A stretch of 28,552 nt of DNA from positions 1 to 28,552 of IMG/VR virus record IMGVR_UViG_3300027522_000023. One strand, given 5' to 3'. The first letter of the stretch is position 1. Each line of letters opens with the position of its first letter. A program made the position numbers and the translations under genes. This stretch comes from a virus. Shown piece by piece: positions 2,503 to 16,734 of the stretch. The notes beneath the pieces are model-generated. The model worked only from the letters and a program-made list of their open reading frames with translations. It made no database searches and was not told the origin of the DNA.

Positions 2503-2690
2503 TTTAACCTCTTGTTTGAGTTAGTTAATTCTTTTATCGGTTCAAATCGTATTCCATTATCATTTTCATATGGAAAATTATGATCAAATTCATTACTTGC
2601 TATTGCAATTGGAATACCATTTGGAAAAGCTTTGCAAGTACCATATTCTTTATCATTAAAATTTTTACATTCTGTACAAATACTAATCAT
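2499..2690 (-). CDS. Small cysteine-containing hypothetical protein, 63 aa
   Basis: The protein starts MISICTECKNF and carries a CxxC pair (residues 5 and 8) plus a third cysteine in TCKAFPNGIP and a histidine in FDHNFP. This pattern is compatible with a small metal-binding or disulphide fold. It ends in a GIRFEPI segment. Small CxxC...CxAFPxGIP proteins are, to my recollection, common beside minor head genes, but their role is unknown. Its start overlaps the end of the minor head gene and its stop overlaps the scaffold start (ATGA), so it is translationally coupled to both. Confidence 0.65.
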   Translation of the reverse strand: MISICTECKNFNDKEYGTCKAFPNGIPIAIASNEFDHNFPYENDNGIRFEPIKELTNSNKRLK

Positions 2691-3699
2691 TTACAGTAAC
2701 TATCTTTTTAGTATCAAATACAATAATTTGATCTCCACCGGTTCTTACAAGCCAATCATCGTATGATTCATTTAATTTTCTTGGCATTTTTACAATTACA
2801 GAATCATATCCTTCTTTTTTTGCTAAATTTGTATAAAAAGTCCCTCTTTTTCCTTCATACCCTAACCCTCTTGCTTCTATAAATTTTTCTGTCCATTTTT
2901 TAGGAAAACCACTACCAGAATTAATAATTAAAGGATTTTTTACATTTACTTTAACATTTAATACTGATTGTTTGCTTTTTCCTTTAGACCAATCTCGCAT
3001 CATTGTAAGCCTTGCCCATTCAGTCGCTTGTTCCGATTGATAGCTTAAATAAACACCATCGCCCCACATTCTTCCATTCTTATTTGATTTTAATGAAAAA
3101 CCTCTATTTGAAATACTTTTTTTTCTAATTTCTGTCGTTCCGTGAAACAATGTAGTCTTTACTTTACTTGCCTTTGCAAATTTTTCTGCTTTTTTTAAAG
3201 ACATTAATGGATTCCACTTAACATTTATTTTCTTATCTCTAATCAATGGTTTATCAAGGTTCTCGCCTTTATAATCCTCTGGTACTAATTGACATCTGCA
3301 ATTTGTTTGGCATATACTAAAACCAGAAGCCGGAAGTCCTATTGTCTCAAAGAACTCATACGTCCCTGTTTCTCTGTGTCTTTCTTCACAGTCAACGCAT
3401 ACCTTACCATCACCAACTGAAATCCATTGAAAGCTTTTTACACCGGCTTTTTTATACTTACTATTTACAGAGTCTTTAGAGTTTAACTCTACACCATTCT
3501 TAACTGTATTCTTTAATTTGTTTTTGAACGAACCAAATAACTGTCCGCTAGAATTAAGATCGTTTAACAATGTTTGACGTATTGCTTGGTCTGCCATCCC
3601 TTGTGACTTCATCGTTGCAACTAGCTCTTGTATAGACAATGTAGTCTGTGCAGCCGTTGCAGTTAATTGGTTTGATATAGTCGCTTGAAGATTAGGCAC
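2683..3699 (-). CDS. Minor head protein (SPP1 gp7-like) fused to an ADP-ribosyltransferase domain
   Basis: This 338-residue protein has two parts. Residues about 85-142 form the phage head-morphogenesis (SPP1 gp7-type) zinc-like motif: WISVGDGKVCVDCEERH, then GLPASGFSICQTNCRC, with C101, C104, H108, C130, C134 and C136. Residues about 180-335 resemble an ADP-ribosyltransferase fold: LFHGT (H186), a WGDGVYLS strand (Y217) and a C-terminal GDQIIVFDTKKI strand. The position usually held by the catalytic Glu seems to be Gln324. Such proteins are minor head components, and some enter the cell with the DNA. Transfer of ADP-ribose from NAD to host targets is possible, but the apparent H-Y-Q triad makes activity uncertain. 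It lies downstream of the portal and morphogenesis genes. Confidence 0.8.
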   Translation of the reverse strand: MPNLQATISNQLTATAAQTTLSIQELVATMKSQGMADQAIRQTLLNDLNSSGQLFGSFKNKLKNTVKNGVELNSKDSVNSKYKKAGVKSFQWISVGDGKVCVDCEERHRETGTYEFFETIGLPASGFSICQTNCRCQLVPEDYKGENLDKPLIRDKKINVKWNPLMSLKKAEKFAKASKVKTTLFHGTTEIRKKSISNRGFSLKSNKNGRMWGDGVYLSYQSEQATEWARLTMMRDWSKGKSKQSVLNVKVNVKNPLIINSGSGFPKKWTEKFIEARGLGYEGKRGTFYTNLAKKEGYDSVIVKMPRKLNESYDDWLVRTGGDQIIVFDTKKIVTVND

Positions 3700-14022: not shown

Positions 14023-14622
14023 TCAGTTCTCCAATCCAATGTCAATCATTCCGTGCAATTTCATAATTGCAGCTTCGCCCTGTTTGTAAGTGTAATCTTC
14101 TGGTGCAGTCAGCATATCACTAACACCATTATATGTGTCGCTATCAATTTTATCGTCTTTTTGCAAATCAGTAATTATTCTCATCTGACCTTCAGTCAAT
14201 AGCTTTGGTTTTTCCAATTCTCCGTTTGGCAAATCTTCACCGGCATATATATATAATCCTAAGCCGTGTAGACTAATTGCTTTAGTCAAACATCTCATTA
14301 TTGATGTATTAATTTCAAAAGCGTTTGGGTTTTTTACAGTATTGTTTCTATTGTCTAGAACTGGGTGAACTTGTGTCATTTCAATTTCTTCAGCAATAAC
14401 AGTCACTTTGACAAAGCAACCAGCTTCCGTTTTCTGATATGGTTGTTTGTTTCCTTCTGTACCCCATTCGTGTACTATCCAATAGGCATCGGGTGCAACT
14501 TTTTTCAATTCAGTTACAGCCCAAGCCCAAGATAAATATGTAAACTTTCCTTTTTTTTCAGCAAATGCAGATACATTTATTTCGTTTAGTTTTTGAAATA
14601 AACTTTTATTTTTTACAGGCAT
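14023..14622 (-). CDS. Single-strand annealing protein, Sak3/DUF1071-like
   Basis: This 199-residue protein carries the hallmarks of the Sak3/DUF1071 recombinase family. FTYLSWAWAVTELKK (residues about 27-41) is followed by MRCLTKAISLHGLGLYIYAG (109-128) and GEDLP. These Rad52-like phage proteins bind single-stranded DNA and anneal complementary strands. A DnaQ-like exonuclease, an SSB and NinG in the same operon make a plausible annealing-based recombination system. A strong GGGAGG site precedes the ATG, which overlaps the end of the 103-residue gene. Confidence 0.85.
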   Translation of the reverse strand: MPVKNKSLFQKLNEINVSAFAEKKGKFTYLSWAWAVTELKKVAPDAYWIVHEWGTEGNKQPYQKTEAGCFVKVTVIAEEIEMTQVHPVLDNRNNTVKNPNAFEINTSIMRCLTKAISLHGLGLYIYAGEDLPNGELEKPKLLTEGQMRIITDLQKDDKIDSDTYNGVSDMLTAPEDYTYKQGEAAIMKLHGMIDIGLEN

Positions 14623-14924
14623 TTTTTTTCCTCCCTGTTTAGTTTTACAATTTTAATAGTAGATTCAACAATATCTGTAATACTATCTACTGATTTATAA
14701 TCGTATTGATTTGTTCTTTTGTTTAGTTTCATTGGCAACGTACATCTGTGAGCGTGGTTTAAAGCCCAACTGTCGCCATTTTTTATGATCTTATGAATAA
14801 GTTCGTCAATAGTATCGCCTAAAACAATACGACCTTTATTACCGTAAGGTGTGTCGCATTCTATACTCGCAACGTATGTGACGTTATCCAATTTGTAAAC
14901 TTTTGTGAAATATTTCCGAGGCAA
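14613..14924 (-). CDS. Hypothetical early protein with unusual start, 103 aa
   Basis: This frame begins most plausibly at a TTG (14924; MPRKYFTKVYKLDN) with no Shine-Dalgarno. An in-frame stop lies just upstream, and no ATG occurs before residue 65. The body (VTYVASIECDTPYG, then IVLGDTIDELIHKIIKNG) looks alpha/beta. Function is unknown. Its start codon lies in one arm of a large inverted-repeat/pseudoknot RNA element, so translation may be controlled by RNA structure. It overlaps the annealing-protein gene by 10 bases. Confidence 0.55.
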   Translation of the reverse strand: MPRKYFTKVYKLDNVTYVASIECDTPYGNKGRIVLGDTIDELIHKIIKNGDSWALNHAHRCTLPMKLNKRTNQYDYKSVDSITDIVESTIKIVKLNREEKKCL

Positions 14925-15004
14925 AATCAGAGCTTAAACCGACCACAGACAGAAATCTGTTGTGTGAATGCCTCGGTAAATTATTAGATTGAATCGGTTT
15001 AAGC
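14916..15004 (-). ncRNA. Pseudoknot-like cis RNA element over the start of the 103-aa gene
   Basis: Two perfect inverted repeats cross each other. Stem A is ccgaggca (14916-14923) with tgcctcgg (14969-14976); stem B is gcttaaaccga (14932-14942) with tcggtttaagc (14994-15004). A hairpin (about 14944-14964, ACAGA/TCTGT core) sits between the arms. Order A-B-hairpin-A'-B' is pseudoknot topology, or two mutually exclusive folds. On the minus strand it lies between the HTH gene and a gene whose TTG start is embedded in stem A. No known riboswitch family is recognised. Confidence 0.55.
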
Positions 15005-15018
15005 ATTGCAAATAGTAA

Positions 15019-15189
15019 CTAATTAATTACCTTAATTCCAAACACTTTTTTAATTAGCAGTAAAACGGCTTTTGAAGGATTACGCAAACCTTGCTCCCAA
15101 GATTCAACAGTACGTCCAGATACACCAAGTTTATTGCCAAACTTGACAGTATTTAAGCCAAGCTTATGTCTAATCTTTTGTATGCTCAT
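15019..15189 (-). CDS. Small XRE/Cro-type HTH protein, 56 aa
   Basis: The ATG at 15189 overlaps the previous stop (TAATG). The product reads MSIQKIRHKLGLNTVKFGNK, then LGVSGRTVESWEQGLRNPSK and a short helix. FGNKLGVSGRTVESWEQGLRN is the classic Cro/CI helix-turn-helix (residues about 17-37). At 56 residues it is a minimal DNA-binding module. It probably represses or tunes the early promoter upstream. No integrase is present, so a lysogeny switch is not supported. Confidence 0.8.
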   Translation of the reverse strand: MSIQKIRHKLGLNTVKFGNKLGVSGRTVESWEQGLRNPSKAVLLLIKKVFGIKVIN

Positions 15190-15763: not shown

Positions 15764-15796
15764 AAAAGCTCCACATCGCTTGAATATAGAGCTTTT
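15764..15796 (-). terminator. Hairpin terminator after the tail/lysis operon
   Basis: A perfect 8-bp inverted repeat (AAAAGCTC / GAGCTTTT) with a 17-base loop lies 22 bases after the stop of the last late gene. On the minus strand it ends in TTTTTT then GC. The long loop weakens it, and the U-run shares bases with the stem. It separates the late genes from the early promoter. Confidence 0.6.
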
Positions 15797-15818: not shown

Positions 15819-16130
15819 TTAGCTTTTGCCGTTCGCACGTCCTTTTAAATATGATATTCCATCTGTTGTGTTGTTTAATTCTTTTATAATGTCATTACGA
15901 TAATTTCTGGTTGTTTCGTCTGATCTATTTAATCTATCTATTAATTTTATAGTAATATCAAAAGTCGAACGTACATTTCCTTCAATTTTTGCAATGGCTT
16001 GACGTATCTGATCTAAGTCTTGATTCTGTAGATTTTGGCTTTTAATTAAGTTCATAATCATATAAGCAAACAAAGCACAGACTAGACCAATTGTTCCATA
16101 TTCAGCGTAAACTTTAAGCATTGGACTCAT
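15819..16130 (-). CDS. Small membrane protein with C-terminal coiled coil, 103 aa
   Basis: The protein has one N-terminal membrane helix (residues about 10-29, EYGTIGLVCALFAYMIMNLI) and a long soluble helical tail (SQNLQNQDLDQIRQAIAKIE and onward). This layout resembles BhlA/holin-like or phage-encoded membrane anchors. It is the last gene of the late operon, in a chain of membrane proteins, with its start overlapping the previous stop (ATGA). A holin or spanin-associated role is possible but not proven. Confidence 0.6.
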   Translation of the reverse strand: MSPMLKVYAEYGTIGLVCALFAYMIMNLIKSQNLQNQDLDQIRQAIAKIEGNVRSTFDITIKLIDRLNRSDETTRNYRNDIIKELNNTTDGISYLKGRANGKS

Positions 16131-16357
16131 TTAATGTTTGTCCTTTTAGCAAGGCTGTCTAGTTCCATATTAATCGTTCTAAGGAGTGAATCGACTTCAA
16201 ACATTTGATAATGGATTTCTTCTAAGTCTTTATTATAGCCACCAATAAAAATATCATCTTCACAAGCAACTTGTAACAATAAAATTATAATTAAAGCAAA
16301 CCCAACAACCGACCACCAACTTAAATGTAATATTCTAAAAAACTTTTTATCAGTCAT
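16127..16357 (-). CDS. Membrane-anchored small coiled-coil protein, 76 aa (inner spanin-like layout)
   Basis: An N-terminal basic tip precedes a strong membrane helix (residues about 13-31, SWWSVVGFALIIILLLQVA), then C32 and a periplasmic coiled coil (YNKDLEEIHYQMFEVDSLLR and onward). It could be an inner-membrane spanin-like protein, or a lipoprotein with a non-canonical lipobox. It overlaps the thioredoxin-like gene and the 103-residue gene. Confidence 0.55.
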   Translation of the reverse strand: MTDKKFFRILHLSWWSVVGFALIIILLLQVACEDDIFIGGYNKDLEEIHYQMFEVDSLLRTINMELDSLAKRTNIK

Positions 16358-16734
16358 TATTTTTTATTCACTATTTTATTTATTGCTCGTGCAACTTCTT
16401 CTGTACTCAAATCAAGATTGCCATCAAAATTTGCTTTCCATACTTTTACTTTTTTACCATCTTTGAACAAAACTACGCTTGGAAAATTTCTTAGTCTTAG
16501 CTTTCGGATAGTCTGAGGAACATTTTTTGAAGATATTATCATCATTTGCGTTCCCATATGTGCCGTGTCTCCTTGCAAAATAAACTTGCCTTGATAAAAA
16601 TTTTGTTTAGAATCTTGTGACCATTCAGCCGTATATCGAACTAACCATAATCCTTCATAAATAGCTCCATAGTGATTTGCATCAGTTACTTGTTGCTGAC
16701 CAAACATTAAAGATATTAAAAGTAATAATCTCAT
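16357..16734 (-). CDS. Secreted thioredoxin-fold protein lacking the CxxC motif
   Basis: An N-terminal signal peptide (MRLLLLISLMFG) is followed by a thioredoxin-like domain: the beta strand WLVRYTAEW (30-38), then SQDS (39-42) where thioredoxin has CGPC, and later LRNFPSVVLFKDGKKV (81-96) with the cis-proline loop (P85). The whole protein has no cysteine. It is therefore not an oxidoreductase of the usual type and more likely a binding, chaperone or immunity module in the periplasm. It overlaps its neighbours by a stop/start (ATGA and TAATG). Confidence 0.75.
   Translation of the reverse strand: MRLLLLISLMFGQQQVTDANHYGAIYEGLWLVRYTAEWSQDSKQNFYQGKFILQGDTAHMGTQMMIISSKNVPQTIRKLRLRNFPSVVLFKDGKKVKVWKANFDGNLDLSTEEVARAINKIVNKK

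Follow-up and report, generated by a model that had tools for sequence, protein, structure and literature searches.

The window, i.e. the whole stretch of viral DNA analyzed here, is 28,552 nucleotides long (IMG/VR record IMGVR_UViG_3300027522_000023, positions 1 to 28,552). The element under study lies on its minus strand, running from 15004 to 14916; this is the coding strand, and the neighboring genes are all on the minus strand too. In all family members with readable flanks, the element is preceded by the end of the late gene block and followed by the first early gene. The late block of the window ends with a 103-aa protein (15819-16130). Two other minus-strand genes of the window gave weak matches. 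A head-maturation or minor-head-like protein (2683-3699) has a C-terminal part weakly matching ADP-ribosyltransferase families, and a small late-block protein (16357-16734), conserved in L007 and L008, has a marginal thioredoxin match. Read from the AUG at its 5′ end, the element is 5′-AUGCUUAAACCGAUUCAAUCUAAUAAUUUACCGAGGCAUUCACACAACAGAUUUCUGUCUGUGGUCGGUUUAAGCUCUGAUUUUGCCUCGG-3′ (15006 to 14916, minus strand). The features of the locus, in the order in which they are read on the minus strand, are as follows.

15764-15796, minus: late-operon terminator of the strong intrinsic type, preceding the element, with counterparts in relatives
15036-15041, minus: −35-like hexamer TTGGAA, weak in the window (TTGACA in L044 and L046)
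15012-15017, minus: −10-like hexamer TACTAT, 5 nt before the AUG, a weak match in the window
15004-15006, minus: invariant AUG, placed where transcription is expected to start; the first base of stem A is its G
14884-15006, minus: leader frame ORF0, spanning the fold with 40 codons and having a stop codon (TAA) that overlaps the start of the next gene
14994-15004, minus: arm A, 5′ half of the 11-bp stem; 100% of cells paired, three pairs with double changes
14977-14993, minus: linker J1, 17 nt, A/U-rich and strongly conserved, with a −10-like NANNNT at +22 to +27
14969-14976, minus: arm B, 5′ half of the 8-bp pseudoknot stem, four pairs with double changes
14955-14960, minus: 5′ arm of hairpin P3, ACAGAU, five of six pairs with double changes
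14945-14950, minus: 3′ arm of hairpin P3, GUCUGU, with covariation
14932-14942, minus: arm A′, 3′ half of stem A, a perfect repeat with A and covariation
14924-14931, minus: linker J3, 8 nt (9 in most relatives), consensus NYCGAUUUU
14916-14923, minus: arm B′, 3′ half of pseudoknot stem B, a perfect repeat with B and covariation
14613-14891, minus: downstream gene, a conserved small early protein of 92 aa with a TTG start and homologs in L006, L007 and L011

The preliminary description of this DNA reported two perfect interleaved inverted repeats with a hairpin in between, and both repeats were confirmed (11 bp, 14932-14942 with 14994-15004; 8 bp, 14916-14923 with 14969-14976). On the minus strand the order of the parts is A, B, hairpin P3 (14945-14960), A′ and B′, with stems A and B crossing each other. 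The same description considered the chance occurrence of such a pair very unlikely. For the window alone this was somewhat overstated, since dinucleotide shuffling of the window produced an 11/8 crossing pair of similar spacing on one strand in 10 of 400 cases (2.5%). Repeats equally good in 2.5% of the shuffles make the window sequence alone only suggestive. The covariation in relatives described below, on the other hand, is far beyond chance. Taken together, the predicted three-stem pseudoknot, consisting of stem A (11 bp), stem B (8 bp) and the inserted hairpin P3 (6 bp), is strongly supported. The order of helices is presumably similar to that in HDV-like folds; such a fold was considered and rejected, because J1 is 17 nt long and there is no P4.

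We collected relatives of the element using pattern matches in IMG/VR, loci of neighboring proteins, a covariance model and a topology script. Besides the window, ~24 IMG/VR contigs carry the element, representing ~16 distinct variants; contig 3300006164_000110 represents a phage identical or almost identical to that of the window. The length from A to A′ is 73 nt in every exact-pattern viral match, though the pattern permitted 58-83 nt. In the diverged members L046 and L024 the stem sequences have been rewritten with the pairing retained, while L058 and L061 have largely different sequences and share the same topology, location and promoter spacing. Five loci (L010, L012, L074, L087 and L127) were set aside as false or doubtful matches. 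Annotated phages and plasmids gave no match to the queries tried, and two scans of bacterial genome collections gave none except one 69-nt chance match (L188). In many more distant relatives, the search up to 900 nt from the marker gene found no fold of this kind. A second copy was looked for and not found, making the element single-copy.

The preliminary description had proposed to look for covariation in related phages, and this analysis revealed compensatory changes in all three stems. Among the 12 main-clade sequences, 99.0% of stem cells are paired and seven pairs show double changes. With L046 added (13 sequences), 98.8% of cells are paired and 12 of the 25 pairs display double compensatory changes, distributed over the stems as three in A, four in B and five in P3. 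None of 500 shuffles of these 13 sequences matched any of the covariation measures. As a control, we slid the pairing partner by 1-3 columns in the same set, and pairing fell to 27-44%. One of the stem A pairs occurs as C-G, U-G, U-A and A-U. Over 16 sequences, the stem cells comprise 378 Watson-Crick pairs, 22 GU, one AC and three other combinations. The excess of GU over AC (22 versus one) indicates selection on the minus-strand RNA rather than on DNA or on the opposite strand. A plus-strand reading was also considered and rejected: a peptide-like frame is present in some relatives (LKPTTDECPLCECPGELFDLIGLS in L006), but it is broken by stops and frame changes in others.

Nested folding of the element gave a z-score of −3.3 and two near-equal states, one combining stem A with P3 and the other stem B with P3. 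It is conceivable that stems A and B compete as alternative states. A different switch, based on nested folds through the ACCGA/UCGGU common to the arms, had been put forward in the preliminary description and did not hold up beyond the window. This alternative pairing amounts to −4.9 kcal/mol in the window and to about −1.3 kcal/mol in most other main-clade members, compared with −12.6 to −16.6 kcal/mol for the real stems, and it is not conserved. Both stem energies, by contrast, are nearly constant across members.

The flanks place the fold immediately after a predicted sigma70-like promoter, with the early genes downstream. The best −10/−35 placement leaves a gap of 5-6 nt before the AUG in each of the 17 members scanned, the −10 forms being TATACT, TATATT, TATAAT, TACAAT, TACATT and similar. 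With such spacing, the transcript would start no more than 2 nt from the AUG and the fold would be flush with its 5′ end. In most members, the upstream terminator is located −47 to −171 relative to the element, and it is farther away where extra genes intervene (−761 in the window, −1197 in L040 and −366 in L006). Downstream, the ribosome site of the first gene lies ~12-14 nt beyond arm B′ in most members. The first downstream gene itself varies between phages, which argues that the element serves the operon rather than a single gene. In the window this operon encodes a Sak-type annealing protein (SSAP), which is not the first gene.

Relatives bearing an integrase (L003/L102, L065 and L103) have the integrase and a tRNA-Asp-like piece at the same place and lack the element. 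The respective stretches, each with a tyrosine-recombinase gene and the tRNA-Asp-like fragment, are L003:780-1962, L065:9235-10440 and L103:5505-6115. ARAGORN detected no whole tRNA at these three integrase loci, and the tRNA-Asp-like piece resembles an attachment site. None of the integrase loci is also an element locus; as the contigs are partial, this is a tendency and not a rule.

In the preliminary description, the downstream gene was assigned a TTG start inside a stem arm. This codon (14924-14922) straddles J3 and B′, but in L006, L007 and L011 the start codon of the homologs, a TTG in two of the three, corresponds to TTG 14891-14889, which falls outside the fold. The idea that the fold covers an early start codon was therefore wrong with respect to the TTG. 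It may hold in another way, as an invariant AUG opens stem A. This AUG is present in all members, including the diverged L046, L024, L058 and L061. The frame that it opens extends for 38 to >116 codons in 19 of 19 members examined, whereas the other two frames carry stops. In the window, L006, L024, L033, L040, L046 and L058 it ends on or beside the start of the following gene, and in others it runs in frame into that gene. In L033 and L040 it remains open for 30 and 37 additional codons, respectively (P = 0.12 and 0.07), and stops at the next start codon. Shuffling gave a chance level of 0.12-0.37 per member for a 35-codon open frame, and stop avoidance in the AUG frame of the main clade has P = 0.018; these open-frame statistics are post hoc and come from related lineages. 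The encoded peptide shows a different picture. In the AUG frame, pN/pS is 0.82, compared with 0.83 in frame +1 and 0.57 in the remaining frame of the strand, and the variable columns are distributed over the codon positions as 13/16/15. Since its pN/pS is about that of frame +1, there is no sign of amino-acid selection, and we rejected ORF0 as a conserved peptide. It appears likely that the leader frame is translated and that it is the open frame, not the peptide, that is kept.

From its place and covariation, we infer that the element is a cis-acting 5′-terminal leader RNA of the main transcript, and it probably controls the switching-on of phage genes. Our first choice for how it might do so, to which we assign a probability of about 0.35, is a gate on translation: the pseudoknot would lock a leaderless AUG and compete with early ribosome loading. 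The AUG would act as a leaderless start codon with its G held in stem A, and the frame starting from it would cross the fold to end at the start of the first gene or fuse with it. A ribosome loading on the nascent 5′ end before A′ is synthesized would melt the fold and bring translation to the operon. Closure of the pseudoknot would, conversely, shut ribosome entry at the 5′ end. Linkers J1, J2 and J3 might provide the contact surface, whether for a protein, the ribosome, the polymerase or a ligand, that sets the balance. The invariance of the AUG and the frame kept open throughout the members examined are consistent with this mechanism. So is the promoter spacing, as leaderless gene starts combine an AUG at the transcription start with a −10 box some 5-7 nt upstream and lack a Shine-Dalgarno sequence. 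However, A1 and U2 may merely mirror a start-site preference (pyrimidine-A-T), with G3 being just the end of stem A. Most members have a Shine-Dalgarno sequence of their own at the first gene, which thus need not depend on ORF0. Masking of the start codon alone would also leave the strong conservation of J1, J2 and J3 unexplained, and the −10 and −35 matches in the window are weak, in addition to the post hoc nature of the open-frame statistics. Tentatively, the first three bases of the RNA could serve at once as transcription start, start codon and foot of stem A, with the element reading the arrival of the ribosome.

Few structured RNAs target an entire phage operon instead of a single gene, and the classic example is put of phage HK022. 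A possible, if doubtful, alternative is an RNA-only antiterminator like put, in which the nascent fold would bind the host RNA polymerase that made it and render this polymerase resistant to pausing and termination along the long operon. Antitermination by put involves the zinc-binding domain of the polymerase β′ subunit. PutL is ~70 nt long, forms the 5′ terminus of an early phage transcript immediately after the promoter and pairs from nt 3; it makes a third-strand contact and contains a −10-like pause sequence, NANNAT, at +23 to +28 (PMC9378689). The element is in the same place, has a similar size and also pairs from nt 3. The sequence NANNNT occurs at +22 to +27 in 14 of 16 members, and neither A23 nor T27 varies in the alignment of 14 sequences, but −10-like hexamers are common by chance in A/U-rich linkers. 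Like putL and putR, ~70-nt 5′ RNAs behind promoters that act independently of the identity of the downstream gene (PMC9378689), the element is indifferent to which gene comes next, as expected of an operon-level device. On the other hand, no strong intrinsic terminator was found inside the early operon of the window, and the single strong terminator, which closes the unit, would be overrun by an antiterminated polymerase. Nor would antitermination explain the open AUG frame, an open frame through put not having been reported. Finally, put consists of two adjacent stem-loops without a pseudoknot, in contrast to the covarying three-helix pseudoknot found here, and no sequence similarity was seen. 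Judged by the predicted fold, the element is not a member of put.

A leader acting as a sensor, in which a phage or host protein (e.g. the SSAP) or a small ligand would bind the pseudoknot and repress or activate translation of the operon, much like in pseudoknot riboswitches, seems rather unlikely. The highly conserved unpaired linkers and the annealing protein encoded in the same operon would fit, and there is a precedent in the leader of gene 32 of phages T4 and T2. Its pseudoknot, located upstream of the ribosome site next to an A/U-rich flank as in our case, is bound by the single-strand-binding protein gp32, which thereby regulates translation (PMC3014915). However, that pseudoknot is a simple coaxial one, belongs to one fixed gene and binds the product of that gene, whereas the element has an extra inserted hairpin, its first gene varies and the SSAP gene is not directly downstream. 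No gene was found to track the element, and no riboswitch in Rfam matched it. The HTH gene adjoins it only in the window and L040 among the members read, which also makes improbable the autoregulatory HTH operator suggested at the outset. A passive 5′ stabilizer, i.e. a flush stem shielding the long transcript from pyrophosphohydrolase and 5′-end-dependent decay, would agree with stem A beginning 0-2 nt from the inferred start site and with the nearly constant stem energies. We regard it as improbable, since a plain hairpin would suffice for this role, making the conserved linkers, the fixed 73-nt length and the pseudoknot superfluous. Least probable is a DNA-level element (a replication origin, regulator operator or recombination site) or a separate small RNA. 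The position between the late and early blocks, where integrase-bearing relatives hold the integrase and the apparent attachment site, would suit the former, but the presence of GU with almost no AC pairs points to selection on the RNA of one strand. As for the stable small RNA raised in the preliminary description, no terminator follows B′, the ribosome site of the first gene is close behind it in most members, and no second copy was found.

The start-codon lock would set the element apart from known leaders. We know of no described leader RNA that works through a leaderless start codon within a 5′-terminal pseudoknot, and if this reading is true, it would represent a new way of working. Pseudoknot riboswitches of the SAM-II, preQ1 and glutamine-II type likewise combine a leader pseudoknot with conserved linkers. 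The element differs from them in the inserted P3 hairpin and in having no common downstream function. No known riboswitch had been recognized in the window initially, and the comparison with Rfam 15 agreed: neither the window nor 15 further loci of the phage group gave a covariance-model score at or above the gathering threshold, and a permissive scan of the element returned chance-level matches only. The STAXI motif (Weinberg et al. 2010, PMC2864571) is a bacterial pseudoknot found near DNA-handling genes in two or three repeats, unlike the single-copy element. A literature search covering open-licence papers found no description of the element. It thus appears to be an undescribed RNA family within a known kind, that of structured leader RNAs. 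The family lies at one fixed genome control point in a group of uncultured phages, and with so simple a layout (promoter, ~90-nt fold, operon) the models of an antiterminator, a translation gate and a sensor can be tested together.

The surroundings of the element contain further features in some of its relatives. In L058-type phages, an inverted repeat (AAGGCTTAAGC...GCTTGAGCCTT) lies just upstream of the promoter of the element (L058:9070-9180). Between the element and the first gene, L033 (4700-4790) and L040 (10195-10260) have a possible second structured stretch, with an AACC...GGTT outer stem and two inner hairpins. Just downstream of the element, at L007:4450-4465 and also in L005, L025 and L026, there is an exact 16-bp palindrome, TGTTTCACGTGAAACA. 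It is confined to one phage type, and we take it to be the canonical bacterial parS (ParB-binding) site.
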